Source of the DNA: Prevotella sp.
GTDB lineage: Bacteria; Bacteroidota; Bacteroidia; Bacteroidales; Bacteroidaceae
Assembly (NCBI GenBank): GCA_016285075.1
Contig: JAEEQB010000005.1
Coordinates: 1 to 64,000, forward strand
DNA: 64,000 nt
Direction: 5' to 3'
Part shown: positions 40,427 through 51,995 of the stretch, in pieces
How the letters are laid out: each line of letters opens with the position of its first letter
Numbering within the stretch: the stretch's first letter is position 1
The notes under the pieces: generated by a model
Told to the model about the DNA's origin: nothing
The model's input: only the letters and a program-made list of their open reading frames with translations
The model's database searches: none
Program-made: the position numbers and the translations under genes

Positions 40427-41044
40427 CTATTTATTCATCTGTTGTTTATAAAAGTCCACCACTTCTCGCATTGACATGATGTACATTTTGAGCCTCTTAC
40501 CGTCGAGAGGTGTGCGACTGCCGTCCATCCAACTGAGTTCTTGGAATTCTATGCAGAATGTGTAGTAGTCATTCCTGCCCTGTTGATACCATAGCAGCGC
40601 ATCGGCATAGACGGAGTAGTACAGGTTACAGAAAGGCTTGAAAAAGATGAAGTGCTCATCGTCCTCATACACCACCTTACAGAACTGCTCCACGACGCTT
40701 GGCACAAAGTGCTCGTCGGTATATTCCTCTACGAGCCGTTTAAACTCCCTGTATGTGGCGATAGATTCGTCTGTGCTTTCTTCCTGTGTGTGCATAAAGT
40801 CCGCTGGCGACGAATGGAACATGGTCATCTGATTCATCATCGCCGCCTGACGCTCTGCCTGCTGATACGTTGCCTGCTCCTCGCTCATGGCCAACTGCCT
40901 GTGAAGCATTGTCAGATGATACTTGCCATACGTCAGTGTCAACTTGACGGCCAAAGTCACATCAATGGCACGTTGTTGGTAGCGCTCTGACAATCCTTGC
41001 CGCGGCTTCAAGTGGCTAAGCGTTTCTTCTGAGAAATAGTTCAT
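40427..41044 (-). CDS. Hypothetical protein (last gene of the five-gene island operon)
   Basis: Overlaps upstream gene by 4 nt; no recognised motif. Confidence 0.65.
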   Translation of the reverse strand: MNYFSEETLSHLKPRQGLSERYQQRAIDVTLAVKLTLTYGKYHLTMLHRQLAMSEEQATYQQAERQAAMMNQMTMFHSSPADFMHTQEESTDESIATYREFKRLVEEYTDEHFVPSVVEQFCKVVYEDDEHFIFFKPFCNLYYSVYADALLWYQQGRNDYYTFCIEFQELSWMDGSRTPLDGKRLKMYIMSMREVVDFYKQQMNK

Positions 41045-42234
41045 GCTCCCTTATAGATACTCAATTTAAAGCCTTTACGGAAATGAATGTTGTCAAATCC
41101 TAAGTGATGAAGTATTGTAATTAACACAGTAAATTCTAAATAGAAAATCGTGTAATTGTAGTTCAAATAATCAATAATCTTTTCTGAAGGAAGCCTGTGT
41201 AAAATTTCATTTCGTAGGTCAACAAAGTCTTTTAACCCAACGCTTTCTTTGATATTACCATTTAGCTTGGACAAATCAATATTTTTCTTTGTCAGAGATT
41301 CGCTTACAATATCATAGGCATCCCGTGGAGCGTTATGCTCTTTCCCATTCTTGTCAACTACTTTTTCTGTTGTCTTTATCTTCTCAACTTTTTCTGCTAT
41401 GGTTTCAAGAATTGAAACTAAATATATAAATTTAGTTAGATTATCAACATATTTTGAACTTATATATCTTTCTATAGCTTTCACCATATATTCTCTTATC
41501 GTTCTCTCTGAATAGTTGTCTGCTGTTTTAAGAGACAATTTCATATACTGTTCTAAATCTTTTAATGCTACATGATCTAAATAGTGCAAGTCGTTGGTAA
41601 AGGGGGATAACTCACGAAACCGATATTGTACAGGAATATACGTTATTATCTTTTTACCTTCTTTACAATCCTCCTTACAACGGATTTCCATAGCCGTTCC
41701 TTGAAATAGCGATAACAAGGAAACAACAATGTCCTTGTATGGGGTGTCTCTCTTCGTTTTAATCAGTATTTCATTATCGTTATTCTGTGAAAGTAAATAT
41801 TTGTTGTGCTTATATTCAACTTCTACATCTTTATCACTGAGCCCCTTAACACGCCATTTCTTATCTGTAGTAACGACATCAAACAAAAACCCTTCTTCTT
41901 CGTTTGTCTCTATCACTCTCTTAAAAGAACTAATTGACCATTGATACTTTACACCATATACAGCGTGTTCCACTTTTGTATGTAATAATACTGTTCTAGA
42001 GAAATCATAATGGCATTGATCTCCTAAAACCTGGGACGAATTGACTATATAGTCGCTAAAACTGGTCGGGTTATTGACCATTTCATTTGAAAGGATCGCC
42101 AAACGGCTATCTTCTGGACTTGTCGCACTTAAAATATAATTTGCTCCATCAAACTCTATAGTGGCTTGATTCATTCTTATTTCTCCAGCTCTATCTTTGA
42201 GTGAAAAATCTATGCTATCTTTGAAAGTTATCAT
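41041..42234 (-). CDS. HEPN (ApeA-like?) domain protein
   Basis: Helical C-terminus with R-x4-H motif LRNEILHRLPSEKIIDYLNY (about 41191-41220). Confidence 0.6.
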   Translation of the reverse strand: MITFKDSIDFSLKDRAGEIRMNQATIEFDGANYILSATSPEDSRLAILSNEMVNNPTSFSDYIVNSSQVLGDQCHYDFSRTVLLHTKVEHAVYGVKYQWSISSFKRVIETNEEEGFLFDVVTTDKKWRVKGLSDKDVEVEYKHNKYLLSQNNDNEILIKTKRDTPYKDIVVSLLSLFQGTAMEIRCKEDCKEGKKIITYIPVQYRFRELSPFTNDLHYLDHVALKDLEQYMKLSLKTADNYSERTIREYMVKAIERYISSKYVDNLTKFIYLVSILETIAEKVEKIKTTEKVVDKNGKEHNAPRDAYDIVSESLTKKNIDLSKLNGNIKESVGLKDFVDLRNEILHRLPSEKIIDYLNYNYTIFYLEFTVLITILHHLGFDNIHFRKGFKLSIYKGA

Positions 42235-42275: not shown

Positions 42276-44168
42276 TTATCTAAAAGATGGGTTACGTATA
42301 AACCTACGTTCATTTTCTCGTGACCACGACAAGATTTCTTCACTATAGTATTTTAATGGTTTTACTTGTAATCCCTCTGTAGTGAATCCACAAGCTTCCT
42401 TTAATGAAAGAAATCTAAATCCATCCCTTGCATAATACATGTCATCGGGTATGAGGTATGCTGTTTCCGGCCACCATCCTAAATACCCCCAAGAGTCAAC
42501 ATGCCAACTCTGGTAATCATATTTTGCAACGAATTGCAAGACATATAGCAATTCTGATGAAGGGAAAGCCTTATGAAAAACTGTAATATGACAATAATCT
42601 GGCTCCATTATATATTCGGATGAACTACTGTCATCTTCACACACAAACATCTCTAGCCAAAGTTGTGAAGGGTGTAATAAAGCTCTGGTATCCAAAATAT
42701 CGCCGATGGTTTTATTTTGAAGTTCATCTGGGCACTTTATCACTTCTTTCCCACTCCTTTTATGAATCTCTTCCGCAATCTTATAGGCTTCCAGTATGCT
42801 AACATTCTTACATTTAGTAAGTCTTTCTCGGCAATGTTGATTGTAGGACTCAATTGCATAATTTGCTTCAAAAAGTAAACGCACATTTTCTTTTTTCAGA
42901 AATCTGTTTCTTCTTTTTAGCTTATGCGAAAAGCGAGAGTTGAAGACGCATGACCCTATAAATCGCTTTACGTATTTTTCTTTATCTGGATAATCTTCAA
43001 TGGCAGGTATCGTGACGAATTCCACAAAAGGAGTATTTGTAATTTTTGTGATTTTACCTAGAGTGCCACCAAACTCTGGTTTCTCCCCGATAATTTCCCA
43101 ACTAAAAAAACTATTCCTTTTTCTGCTATCTGGCCGAACTTCATATGTAAATTCTGGTTCTTTTCCATCATAGGAGAATATTTTGCGTTGCAAAGAACTA
43201 TCCCCGAATTCATAATTTGGAGAAGCAACTATTGCGGGCAAATGATGTTTCTTAATGTACTCATATGCTGAAATAGAATTTTTGTTCACCTTTATTTTAT
43301 AGTTTTTAAGTTCTTTGTTTGATTCTATAGCATCATTCAATTCTTTCAGTCTGTCTCTATAATCAGGCCAAAGAAAAAGTTTGTCAATATATTTGCAATA
43401 ATTTTCATAGGCAATTTCAGCTTCATTTCTTGCATTCTGACAAAATTCAATATATTCTTCATCTTCTTTCAGTTGGTCTTGCTTGCGAGCCCAGTCTTCT
43501 ATTTCTAATTTCATCAAGAAGTCAGGTTTTTCTTCAAACCTCATTTTTTGTTGAGTGACACTAAAAGTCCAATACTCAATGAACGATTTGATATAATCGT
43601 TGCTGTAGTTATCAACATCAGCGTGTTTCAGATCTTCTATAAATAATCTGACACGATCCTCTTTAGAAGGAATGATATTTCGATGTGCTTTTGAAGGGAC
43701 TGACGTAGGGTGTGTGGCTGATTTATCATTTGAATTACTTCCTTTTTTAAGTCTTTCGAAATGCGCGGAATACGCCTCTATCAATGATGGCTCGTCGTAA
43801 GTCATGTTGAAAGCCTCAACATTCTTGTTAAATCCGCGATAAGTCCAGTTACATGAACCATGCAGTAGAATCTTATTGTCGATGATGCAATATTTTGTAT
43901 GCATCGTTGAATTCATTTCTTCTACCCAATACAGTTTGCCTCCAAGTTTCTTATACTCACTAAAATCAAGAGAATTTCTGCCCCCATTGTTTATATCGTC
44001 ATACTGCAAAACCAATACAACATCAACGCCTCCCTTTAGTTTCCAGCAAAGGATGCCTAGTATATCCTTTGAGTTAATCCATGCGACCGCAACTTTTATA
44101 GATTTTTGCGCCAACATAAGTTGGTTGACGATGTTTGCCTCTATATTATCAAACACTACATTAGTCAT
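42276..44168 (-). CDS. Phospholipase D-like nuclease with large uncharacterised C-terminal region
   Basis: HKD motif HTKYCIIDNKILLHGSCNWTYRGFNKNVEAF; AQKSIKVAVAWINSKDILGIL N-terminus. Confidence 0.85.
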   Translation of the reverse strand: MTNVVFDNIEANIVNQLMLAQKSIKVAVAWINSKDILGILCWKLKGGVDVVLVLQYDDINNGGRNSLDFSEYKKLGGKLYWVEEMNSTMHTKYCIIDNKILLHGSCNWTYRGFNKNVEAFNMTYDEPSLIEAYSAHFERLKKGSNSNDKSATHPTSVPSKAHRNIIPSKEDRVRLFIEDLKHADVDNYSNDYIKSFIEYWTFSVTQQKMRFEEKPDFLMKLEIEDWARKQDQLKEDEEYIEFCQNARNEAEIAYENYCKYIDKLFLWPDYRDRLKELNDAIESNKELKNYKIKVNKNSISAYEYIKKHHLPAIVASPNYEFGDSSLQRKIFSYDGKEPEFTYEVRPDSRKRNSFFSWEIIGEKPEFGGTLGKITKITNTPFVEFVTIPAIEDYPDKEKYVKRFIGSCVFNSRFSHKLKRRNRFLKKENVRLLFEANYAIESYNQHCRERLTKCKNVSILEAYKIAEEIHKRSGKEVIKCPDELQNKTIGDILDTRALLHPSQLWLEMFVCEDDSSSSEYIMEPDYCHITVFHKAFPSSELLYVLQFVAKYDYQSWHVDSWGYLGWWPETAYLIPDDMYYARDGFRFLSLKEACGFTTEGLQVKPLKYYSEEILSWSRENERRFIRNPSFR

Positions 44169-44171
44169 ATC

Positions 44172-45245
44172 TTATAGAAATGTTAATTTGTACTTAAAGC
44201 CATTACAATAAGGTTCGCTTTCAAATTTGCACCTTGACAGTAAATCCATGCCAATAACAATAGAAACTTCTGCGTCGGGACTTATAGTTAAACCTCTTAG
44301 ACTTTCAATTTGTCCATTTGGAAATGTTACGAAGCAAAAAGTCTTGATAGCCTCTCGTTTACCCGTACAGCCCCCCACCGTTGTTTTTCCAAGATTCTTA
44401 AGTGATGCGTATTCAAAAAAGTCGTCTGAGAATCCCGATGACATAGCCCCTGTATCTATTAATCCTAATACAAGTTCTTCATTGCTACCAACAAGAACTT
44501 TTAGCGGCATCAGCATTTGCTTGTTCTTAACATTATATTCATCAATGATGGGGTCATACTTGACAGTAATAGAATTAGAATCCGTTATAATTTCATAATT
44601 GTTATCGAGCCCCACAAACTTGTGATCAATATTGCAAATCTTTATATCACCATTTTCGTCTAATCCAATATTATCAGGATGGGGATGCCAAAAAGATTCA
44701 GTGTCGAGGGGTTTTATGACATGGTAGGCCTCATCAATTGCCAGTGCCACGTCCTTTGCGACTTGTGTCGCATCTGCACTTTTTATGTTATGAATAACAA
44801 ACGTCCTTGATTTTTCATCCAAATTGGAGTATGCCGTTTCAATATCAATAAATGGATTAGAATCTAACCGATGTTTTTTGACTATACAATCAGTCCACAA
44901 ATCTCTAAATAGGTTAATGCCTGATTGTATAGTAGCTGTTGTTGTAAAATTACGTTTAAGAGGTTCGCTAACGATACAAAATACATTTTGAGGTTCACCG
45001 TACTGGTCAGGAAGAACTGTCTTGAAACAATCTGAGATACCTGCAATATGCTTGTATGTCTTGTTACAAAGTGCTGTAGAGAAATTATACATACTTGATT
45101 TTGTTGTAATACGCACCTCTCTACCATCGTCAAGTCGGTATACGCAAGAATACACATCTTCCAATATAGGCTCTACAATGTTGTAGCCTGTATGTTTCTT
45201 GTTAAATGCCGTTTGCCAAATTTTAGAAATCTGTTTCATAATCAC
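44172..45245 (-). CDS. Kinase-like domain fused to retropepsin-like aspartic protease
   Basis: N-terminal SCVYRLDDGREVRITTK and WHPHPDNIGLDENGDIKICNIDHKF (kinase-like catalytic loop region); C-terminal LGLIDTGAMSSGFS and VIGMDLLSR (retropepsin). Confidence 0.7.
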   Translation of the reverse strand: MIMKQISKIWQTAFNKKHTGYNIVEPILEDVYSCVYRLDDGREVRITTKSSMYNFSTALCNKTYKHIAGISDCFKTVLPDQYGEPQNVFCIVSEPLKRNFTTTATIQSGINLFRDLWTDCIVKKHRLDSNPFIDIETAYSNLDEKSRTFVIHNIKSADATQVAKDVALAIDEAYHVIKPLDTESFWHPHPDNIGLDENGDIKICNIDHKFVGLDNNYEIITDSNSITVKYDPIIDEYNVKNKQMLMPLKVLVGSNEELVLGLIDTGAMSSGFSDDFFEYASLKNLGKTTVGGCTGKREAIKTFCFVTFPNGQIESLRGLTISPDAEVSIVIGMDLLSRCKFESEPYCNGFKYKLTFL

Positions 45246-45272: not shown

Positions 45273-46319
45273 TTATCCAAACTTCTGAATCATTATTTGT
45301 CTAAACTTGCTTAATTTTTCCGTATCGTTTCTGTCCTCTCTGGGATTGGCAACCAAATCAGCAGAAAACTCTATAGTATCTATATTCTCATCTAAAGTAT
45401 ATGCACAAATCTTTCCAACCATTATTTTTTCACGGAACAAACAATCAGATAATGGAGGTTGGCATCCTGCTTCGAAAAACTTAATGCCATAATCAGTATA
45501 GAAACATATGGTGTTGTATTCATTACCAGTTTTAGCGAAGAAGAATGCTTCATGAGGCCGTTCTTTCTTTACGAGCATTTGAAACCACTCGCGTACAGGC
45601 TCGCTCATGTCACTGTATGCATATAAGAAACGAATACCATAGAACCAAGTGACAGGTGCTTTGATTACATTCTTTTCCATATCATTATTTTCATTTTGAT
45701 TACGACGTACAGCATCTAGCTCAGATTGAGTATTTAGAAGTTTGACTCTCAATTTATGCATTTCCATAAGATATTCTTCTGCCAAATTATGCTTATATGG
45801 CTTTGATAACAGTAGAGTACCCAGACGACTATCAAGTACACCTGAATCTGTCTCCAGATTGGGGTCAACTATGAACTCAAAAAAATTCAGCGTGAAAGCG
45901 TTGCAGAAATTAAGCAGTCGTGTAACAGGAAGACGGTGTACCGCCAGCAGTGATTCTTTAACTCGATTAGGATGAACACCTACCGTAGTAGCGGCATCTT
46001 TATACGAAGAGACTACGCCTGATTTGACAACTTGTTGAATGGCTTCTCCGTTATAATAACATTCTTTAAAATGGTCACATACAATATAATCCTCGCGTTT
46101 ACCTATCTCATCAGAGTATTCAGATGAAAAGAATCGACTTACTGGAATATGCAGGCCATTAGCCAGGTCAATAAGTTGATGTACTGATATTTTAGATGGA
46201 GTCTGGACTATTCTATACCATGTTGATATAGCAATGTTAGACTTCTCCGATATAGCCCCATTCGTCATATTCAATATACGTGGAAGCTCTTTCAATAGTT
46301 TCTCGTTAAGCTGCATCAT
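45273..46319 (-). CDS. XRE/HTH-like regulator
   Basis: MTNGAISEKSNIAISTWYRIVQTPSKISVHQLIDLANGLHIPVSRFF; second HTH-like VVSSYKDAATTVGVHPNRVKESL. Confidence 0.7.
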   Translation of the reverse strand: MMQLNEKLLKELPRILNMTNGAISEKSNIAISTWYRIVQTPSKISVHQLIDLANGLHIPVSRFFSSEYSDEIGKREDYIVCDHFKECYYNGEAIQQVVKSGVVSSYKDAATTVGVHPNRVKESLLAVHRLPVTRLLNFCNAFTLNFFEFIVDPNLETDSGVLDSRLGTLLLSKPYKHNLAEEYLMEMHKLRVKLLNTQSELDAVRRNQNENNDMEKNVIKAPVTWFYGIRFLYAYSDMSEPVREWFQMLVKKERPHEAFFFAKTGNEYNTICFYTDYGIKFFEAGCQPPLSDCLFREKIMVGKICAYTLDENIDTIEFSADLVANPREDRNDTEKLSKFRQIMIQKFG

Positions 46320-46410
46320 ATTTTTGCTGTTGCGATTATGGGTGCAAAGTTAAGCAATATTTTCGATTAAACAAATATTTTCGCAAAAACATTTACTAAA
46401 TGGCCCACAA

Positions 46411-50015: not shown

Positions 50016-50220
50016 AAACAAGAATCAAAAGTGGACGTTCAGTCTTATGTCCTATTGTCTTTTATCTGTCCATTGGCGTACATTTTTTATTAAACATGCT
50101 GCAAAATTACTCAAACTTTGCCACATAACCAAACAATTTGTATTAAATAAGGTGTTTTTGTCTATTAATTCTTTGCCCTTTGCTGGAAAATGCTTAATTT
50201 TGCAAGCAAAATTTTCAATT

Positions 50221-51327
50221 ATGATTGACAAAATAAGGATAGAAAACTATAAGTCAATAGTTGACTTGACGTTGGAACTTGGCCGTTTCAATGTTATCAT
50301 TGGTACTAATGGCTGTGGTAAATCCAACATTTTAGAAGCAATCACAATGGGAGCGTTGGGCGTTTCCGACAATGCCGACATAGGAAGATTGGCAAAACAC
50401 GGTATCCGCGTTACAGACTCAAATTTAATGGTCAATGCGTTTGAGGACATTGATGATAATATGAGTGAGTTTATCCAACTTCAGGTTTCTGGTGACAATA
50501 AGCCATACGACACGGGCATTGCTTTGTCATACGAAGAAAAATGGAACAAATGGGTTGATATCAAACCAAAAGAATACAGTATCATCAAGCAACATTATAT
50601 AAAAGAACATGGTGAGACAACAAAAGAAGAGGTTCCCTATAATGAATACCATAAACTACGTAAGGAACTAATCGAAAAGCCCGCGTTTCTTAGGTTTCTA
50701 ACGTATTCTCCTAATGAAAGTGTTATGAGAGAAATGGTTAGAAGTATAGATGTGTATCCATTAGGAGTGCATGGTGAGGGACTTTTCCAATACCTAAAAC
50801 TAACAAAAACTCAAAATCTTTTCCCCATTATCAATGAAGGGCTCAGAATGTTAGACTGGTTTGAGGATGTTTCTCCAGCCGATGATTTGTTGTCCAATGA
50901 ATTTGATGTTAATATAACAGATAAATATTTGAAAGAAACCCTGCACAGTTTCGACCAGCGTAGTACAAACGAGGGATTCCTTTATCTGTTGTTCTATCTT
51001 ACTTTGTTCAATAGTCAGGATACTCCATCTTTCTTTGCGGTGGATAACATAGAGACCTCATTTAATCCAGGATTATGTCAGAATTTGACAAAGTATCTGG
51101 TTGGTGTTTCAGGAAAAAAGGACAAGCAGGTGATTCTGACGACGCATAATCCATTTGTGCTTGATGGATTGGATTTGTCTGATGACGAACAACGATTGTT
51201 TGTATGCCGTCGTGATATTGACGGACATACAAGGATAGAGCGTGTGAAGTATAGGGAGGATAGGAAGATGTCTCTTTCTGAGTTGTGGATGTCAGGACTG
51301 ATTGGCGCTCTGCCTGAAAATTTCTGA
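50221..51327 (+). CDS. AAA family ATPase (AAA_21/OLD-like; AbiLi/AriA-like)
   Basis: MIDKIRIENYKSIVDLTLELGRFNVIIGTNGCGKSNILEAI (Walker A), FFAVDNIETSFNP, QVILTTHNPFVLDGLDL; ATG at 50221 preferred. Confidence 0.88.
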   Translation: MIDKIRIENYKSIVDLTLELGRFNVIIGTNGCGKSNILEAITMGALGVSDNADIGRLAKHGIRVTDSNLMVNAFEDIDDNMSEFIQLQVSGDNKPYDTGIALSYEEKWNKWVDIKPKEYSIIKQHYIKEHGETTKEEVPYNEYHKLRKELIEKPAFLRFLTYSPNESVMREMVRSIDVYPLGVHGEGLFQYLKLTKTQNLFPIINEGLRMLDWFEDVSPADDLLSNEFDVNITDKYLKETLHSFDQRSTNEGFLYLLFYLTLFNSQDTPSFFAVDNIETSFNPGLCQNLTKYLVGVSGKKDKQVILTTHNPFVLDGLDLSDDEQRLFVCRRDIDGHTRIERVKYREDRKMSLSELWMSGLIGALPENF

Positions 51328-51332
51328 GTTTT

Positions 51333-51995
51333 ATGAGTAAGAAAATTGGTGTCGTCAGTGAGGGTGTTTCGGATTATTATGTACTGAAACATATCGTCTC
51401 GCGCTATCTGAAAGAACAGGATGTCTATACCATCCCATTGAACCCCAAGCAGGACAAAGGTAAGCAGGTGGGCTTTAGCGGATGGCAGGGTGTGTTGAAC
51501 TATATTTCGGGCATGGATGAAAAGAATCTGTTTGTGGAAGCACTGAAAGAGGAATGCGAATATGTGGTAGTGCAGATTGACACAGACCGCTGTGCAGAGT
51601 ATGGCGTTGAGCATCAGACCGACGACTTGACTGTTCTTTGGAAGAATGTGTACGAGAATCTTGTGAATCGTATCCCTGCCGATTTTGATAAGAGCAAGCT
51701 AATCTTTGCCATTAGTATTGATGAAACGGAATGTTGGCTTATCCCTTTCATAGACACGAATAAGAAGAACTGTGAGAATATTGACCGTTGCGTGAATCTG
51801 GTAAACAAGGGGATTAAGAAGCAGGATCTTTTCATAGACCCTGACAACAAGAATAGCGATGGCGCAAAGAGCGCATACGATTATATTCTGAAACAAAAGA
51901 AGAAGCCAAAAGAAATTAAGGAGTGTTCGGAATTTAACTACGGGTTCAAGAAATTGATTGAACAATTAGACGAAATAAGTGCAAAGGAATCTTAG
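51333..51995 (+). CDS. TOPRIM/DUF4276-like protein (AbiLii/AriB-like partner)
   Basis: KIGVVSEGVSDYYVLKHIV, YVVVQIDTDRCAEYG, AISIDETECWLIPF; 5 bp downstream of the ATPase. Confidence 0.7.
   Translation: MSKKIGVVSEGVSDYYVLKHIVSRYLKEQDVYTIPLNPKQDKGKQVGFSGWQGVLNYISGMDEKNLFVEALKEECEYVVVQIDTDRCAEYGVEHQTDDLTVLWKNVYENLVNRIPADFDKSKLIFAISIDETECWLIPFIDTNKKNCENIDRCVNLVNKGIKKQDLFIDPDNKNSDGAKSAYDYILKQKKKPKEIKECSEFNYGFKKLIEQLDEISAKES

Follow-up and report, generated by a model that had tools for sequence, protein, structure and literature searches.

A gene of a Prevotella sp. contig may encode the protease partner in an HTH-protease controller that governs swappable immune genes, and its product would act by cutting the HTH regulator encoded next to it. 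This is a tentative reading of the arrangement of genes at related loci, to which we assign a probability of about 0.4. We named the gene and its protein KP, for an N-terminal kinase-like region and a C-terminal retropepsin. The window is the whole stretch of DNA that was analysed (64,000 nucleotides).

The KP gene and its operon

KP stands second in what appears to be an operon of five genes on the minus strand, in which an HTH regulator, KP, a PLD protein, a HEPN-like protein and a 205-aa gene follow each other with intergenic gaps of 27, 3, 41 and -4 bp (5' to 3'). The genes and the elements upstream of them are the following:

46356..46383, minus strand: tandem CGAAAATATT repeat by the HTH-gene promoter, a weak operator candidate (9 of 500 shuffles reach it)
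46344..46348, minus strand: TTTGC of a putative -7 promoter element, 29 bp upstream of the HTH gene; boxes like it precede several sibling HTH genes
45273..46319, minus strand: dual-HTH regulator of 348 aa with a coiled coil and an extra C-terminal domain, operon gene 1; its homologues head defence loci
44172..45245, minus strand: KP gene, 357 codons if read from GTG and 355 if read from the conserved ATG, which lies at 45239 (from the ORF, homologues, alignment and start context)
42276..44168, minus strand: PLD-family nuclease-like protein of 630 aa, HxKxxxxD at residue 90 (PF13091, E=2.2e-21), 3 bp after KP
41041..42234, minus strand: 397-aa protein with a HEPN-like RNEILH (R-x4-H) at residue 341; a 75% identical copy is found in locus L011
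40427..41044, minus strand: 205-aa gene, overlapping the HEPN-like gene by 4 bp; most sibling loci have a homologue at their 3' end

The first-pass annotation had described KP as one 357-aa ORF. The frame from 44172 to 45245 is indeed single and unbroken from a GTG start, although the homologues start at the internal ATG, six bases on, so the native protein probably has 355 residues and the GTG is probably unused. All the motifs that had been quoted for KP were located in its translation, namely LGLIDTGAMSSGFS, which holds the DTG at residues 264-266, VIGMDLLSR, which holds IGMD at residues 331-334, VYRLDDGREVRITTK and WHPHPDNIGLDENGDIKICNID. The whole protein had no significant match in Pfam, NCBIfam, PHROGs or PADLOC. 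A search of 301 genomes of the family returned one homologue, full-length and 53% identical, and searches by genus added homologues in two other genomes (G718 and G855); KP is therefore not a chance ORF. No further homologues were found in 398 genomes of the window's own genus.

The neighbours had been called PLD and HEPN proteins, in agreement with the PF13091 match of the former and the HEPN-type RNEILH in the 397-aa ORF. The HTH Pfam matches of the dual-HTH homologues are weak. The TTTGC box upstream of the HTH gene is presumably a promoter of the Bacteroidetes type. Ten upstream regions were searched for a conserved operator; they yielded only the weak CGAAAATATT repeat of the window, which is not conserved in the sibling loci. 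The GC content of the first four operon genes is 0.33-0.37 versus 0.48 in the window, which points to their horizontal acquisition; that of the 205-aa gene is 0.48. Homologues of this last gene occur in six other loci (L011, L012, L027, L030, L044 and L059), and those at interchangeable defence loci are often shortened, to 131, 155 or 84 aa. The window contains a second defence-type pair at 50047-51995 on the plus strand, an AAA/AbiEii-like ATPase (PADLOC PDC-M31A, E=1.9e-64) and, after it, a DUF4276 protein (PDC-M31B), which makes the region a defence island.

The C-terminal retropepsin-like domain

The C-terminal third of KP is an ordinary retropepsin fold with a single DTGA, and its features are as follows:

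44175..44519, minus strand: retropepsin-like domain, KP residues 243-357 (AlphaFold model and Foldseek matches)
44445..44456, minus strand: DTGA active-site motif, KP residues 264-267, invariant in 4/4 homologues
44238..44255, minus strand: IGMDLL, second retropepsin motif, invariant in 4/4 homologues

The first-pass annotation had proposed this fold from motifs and had suggested AlphaFold and Foldseek as a check. The AlphaFold model, built from a five-sequence alignment, was confident over residues 240-357 (pLDDT about 70-87), and its best PDB match in Foldseek was Rickettsia APRc (5c9f, E=2.9e-6). Other matches included XMRV protease (3sm1), DDI1, HIV protease and phage retropepsins. With E<=0.001 as the threshold, 87 PDB entries matched, and those listed were almost without exception retropepsins. 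Among viral models, the top match was a stand-alone phage retropepsin (A0A8S5LJK9 in BFVD; E=2.1e-10, TM-score 0.76 over the target). Fold and motifs thus agree: KP combines the D-T/S-G-A motif, the second hydrophobic-hydrophobic-Gly motif and a fold of ~110-120 residues (AF2 and Foldseek), while Pfam aspartyl-protease models score it below their cut-off (PF13975, E=0.04). The KP chain carries one DTG, from which a homodimer would be expected in the retropepsin family.

Aspartic proteases are rare in bacteria (PMC11957791). Rickettsia APRc/RC1339, RimB and RloA resemble KP in having a retropepsin fold and a single DTG(A) per chain, and dimers have been reported for RloA and RimB (PMC12239564, PMC11957791). 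RimB targets ribosomal protein S6, RloA functions in osmotic stress, and no kinase-like domain has been described for any of the three. The closest relatives of the KP domain in sequence and structure are stand-alone phage/Prevotella-type retropepsins (132-168 aa), which differ from KP in being without the N-terminal domain; when checked for an adjoining dual-HTH gene, none had one. One retropepsin-like ORF (L046:6159-6575) lies in a phage tail region, shortly upstream of a 1210-aa tape-measure-like ORF. Stand-alone ORFs (L053, L054, L056, L087, L088, L089 and L092) are often preceded by an ORF of 75-105 aa, possibly forming a two-gene cassette with it, and in L054, L056 and L060 the retropepsin ORF is followed by a NusG-like ORF.

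The N-terminal kinase-like region

The N-terminal two thirds of KP are probably of protein-kinase origin, judging from profile comparison. The segments concerned are:

44550..45239, minus strand: N-terminal region, KP residues 3-232, probably kinase-derived and degenerate (hhalign profile score)
44670..44693, minus strand: FWHPHPDN, aligned with the catalytic loop HRDxxxxN of kinases; the HRD Asp is His here and Phe in homologues, and the Asn is kept
44625..44633, minus strand: NID, equivalent of DFG with Asp replaced by Asn (alignment); NIG in the other three homologues

A kinase fold had been read into this region by the first-pass annotation, and that part of its proposal is only suggestive. 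Against 23 Ser/Thr kinase domains from related genomes, the profile of the region gave a global hhalign score of 22.8, which was reached by none of 150 column shuffles (3.4 +/- 2.0, maximum 11.7) and by none of 102 real protein segments used as decoys (4.3 +/- 2.4, maximum 12.25). In addition, beta1-beta2 and the catalytic loop align in order, and the predicted order of strands and helices fits a kinase N-lobe and the start of a C-lobe. The spacing of 13 residues from the catalytic-loop equivalent to N205 is that of kinases such as PKA. The profile score, the aligned segments and the predicted order of strands and helices argue against the region being an orphan fold unrelated to kinases, in which case KP would be a retropepsin whose other domain is a novel module for sensing or for substrate recruitment. 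We regard this as the less favoured of the two origins but as a serious possibility, since the region matched nothing in Pfam or among PDB sequences, its models were of low confidence in two AlphaFold runs (pLDDT ~35 and 42), the isolated model gave no significant Foldseek match, and the hhalign probability of the kinase match was just 4-19%, with a poor middle of the alignment. Single family members also scored lower than the profile against the kinase set (18.4, 10.5, 12.0 and 7.5). End-to-end alignments to the kinase families APH and HipA did not rise above shuffles, and a HipBA-type toxin-antitoxin reading of KP was set aside on this ground.

If the region is kinase-derived, it would be a pseudokinase, as had been suggested from the replaced HxD Asp, and more thoroughly so than was claimed. 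The Gly-rich loop and the VAIK lysine are absent from the family, which has EDVYSCV and VRIT/LRLT instead, and in 4/4 KP proteins the position of the VAIK Lys is Thr, that of the HRD Asp is H or F and that of the DFG Asp is N.

Homologues, exchanged cores and natural deletions

Four intact copies of KP are known from our searches (the window, L012, L044 and L059), and they represent three independent lineages. The other three are 51-53% identical to the KP of the window, two of them being nearly identical to each other, and those of L012 and L044 are 72% identical. Purifying selection acts on both halves of the protein, with a dN/dS between the L012 and L044 copies of 0.16 overall, 0.19 in the N-terminal part and 0.125 in the C-terminal part. 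The copies of L044 and L059 differ by a dS of 0.026 and lie in different genera, which indicates that the module moves horizontally. No homologues were found in IMG/VR scans or by tblastn against plasmids and phages. Partial matches to the N-terminal region in other genomes (e.g. L005 and L008) were short and chance-like, and were rejected.

A gene for a dual-HTH homologue lies directly upstream of KP, on the same strand, in all four cases. The core behind KP is PLD plus HEPN-like in the window, McrB492 plus McrC440 in L012, and McrB678 plus McrC346 in L044 and L059; McrC was confirmed by PF10117. Without KP, the same HTH family heads McrBC loci (L029 and L030) and other cores (L028), and most loci of the family end in the 205-aa gene. 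In L025-L027, also without KP, the HTH gene is followed by genes for a TM protein and a 655-aa zinc-finger nuclease-like protein, which contains seven treble-clef zinc fingers (DUF4379) and weakly matches REase_MTES_1575. The HTH proteins of L012 and L044 are just 36% identical despite the similarity of their KPs, and that of L012 is closest (54%) to the HTH protein of a KP-less locus. HTH proteins of PLD-type loci (45273-46319 in the window and L011:6882-7973) have an extra C-terminal domain of ~130 aa that is absent in McrBC-type loci.

Two loci have lost KP. In L011 (CAMHJQ010000006.1), a deletion of ~919 bp that adjoins a short ATTGT repeat leaves the first ~20 and the last ~28 KP codons, out of frame; the HTH, PLD (93% identical) and 389-aa HEPN-like genes are open. 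In L045, a C-terminal remnant of the HTH gene is fused directly to the last KP codons, and the PLD gene is shortened. This HTH remnant retains part of the extra ~130-aa domain.

Possible roles of KP

The first-pass annotation had proposed testing cleavage of the neighbouring PLD and HEPN proteins. This is not the likeliest function, since KP is tied to the upstream HTH gene while the downstream core is swapped. Because the cores differ, a target shared by all KPs would have to lie outside the operon if it is not the HTH protein; the HTH protein is the sole partner within the operon common to all of them besides the 205-aa gene, which makes cleavage of the regulator the most economical proposal. 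In such a controller, the dual-HTH protein would repress the whole operon, from its own gene through KP to the immune core, and the catalytically dead kinase-like domain would sense a signal of infection or damage. KP would then pair as an active homodimer, in which two DTGA motifs form one site, and would cut the HTH protein. The cut would probably fall in the variable linker that joins the coiled coil of this protein to its HTH part, and would lift repression. KP-less HTH relatives head other immune-type cores, as expected of an operon regulator. Against a controller, KP and HTH do not co-diverge, several HTH loci are without KP, the intact copies number just four and come from three lineages, and KP is dispensable in L011, where the PLD and 389-aa genes outlast it.

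The movement of KP between HTH lineages regardless of their ancestry would also suit an independent immune effector, with a kinase-like domain that senses infection and a retropepsin that then cleaves essential proteins of host or phage. The HTH gene would in that case only control KP expression, and the neighbouring core would be another system placed behind KP. Bacterial immunity is known to use protease effectors, and KP fills a second slot that is held by a TM protein or another core gene in sibling loci. We nevertheless consider this main alternative somewhat unlikely, as KP was never found without the HTH gene and never alone, a complete other system lying behind it in 4/4 intact cases. 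The gap of just 3 bp between KP and PLD suggests translational coupling, as might be expected if KP were a maturation protease that clips and thereby activates the downstream nuclease (PLD or McrB/C). However, one specificity would have to fit proteins that differ over three contexts (PLD/HEPN and two McrBC types), and L011 has kept its PLD and HEPN-like genes after losing KP, so that this role appears improbable. The same locus makes an antitoxin-like role most improbable, in which KP would restrain a toxic core protein by removing or inhibiting it. The operon order, with KP before the nucleases, would permit restraint, but loss of a sole restraint beside a full-length PLD and the 389-aa gene should be lethal; the L011 and L045 relics, with KP deleted and the L011 PLD still open, indicate that KP is not indispensable for restraining PLD.

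Comparison with known immune controllers

Regulator cleavage by KP would have a parallel in the 'Cap' controllers of immune operons, in which the CapP protease cuts the CapH repressor (PMC13373217). CapH+CapP of CBASS and related operons resembles the KP locus in context only: in both, an HTH gene paired with a protease gene lies upstream of varied, interchangeable immune operons. CapP belongs to the zinc metallopeptidases and is activated by ssDNA, whereas KP has an aspartic protease fold without HExxH, and the KP locus is therefore not a member of this class. CapK+CapS and CapW/BrxR are also regulators placed before swapped immune cores (PMC13373217), but they consist of a GHKL kinase with a STAS-wHTH protein and of a WYL regulator, respectively, and no such domains were found by Pfam in KP loci. 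The likeness to protease-HTH immune controllers thus appears to be one of organisation only. Our literature searches found no paper that places a bacterial retropepsin-like protease in an immune or phage-defence operon, nor, together with protein-family libraries, did they return the KP fusion, a dead-kinase-like partner or placement in swapped immune operons. It is rather doubtful, though conceivable, that KP loci represent a fourth class of Bacteroidales immune-operon controller, in which a dual-HTH repressor would be destroyed by a pseudokinase-gated homodimeric retropepsin and the cassette would be mobile between McrBC, PLD/HEPN and other cores.

The two KP relics and the swapped cores make the role of KP directly testable. 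If immune genes are under the control of KP, switching of immunity by proteolysis would have evolved with a second, unrelated class of protease, and the pseudokinase would represent a new type of infection sensor. The placement of the HTH-KP pair suggests a new way of turning on bacterial immunity by proteolysis.
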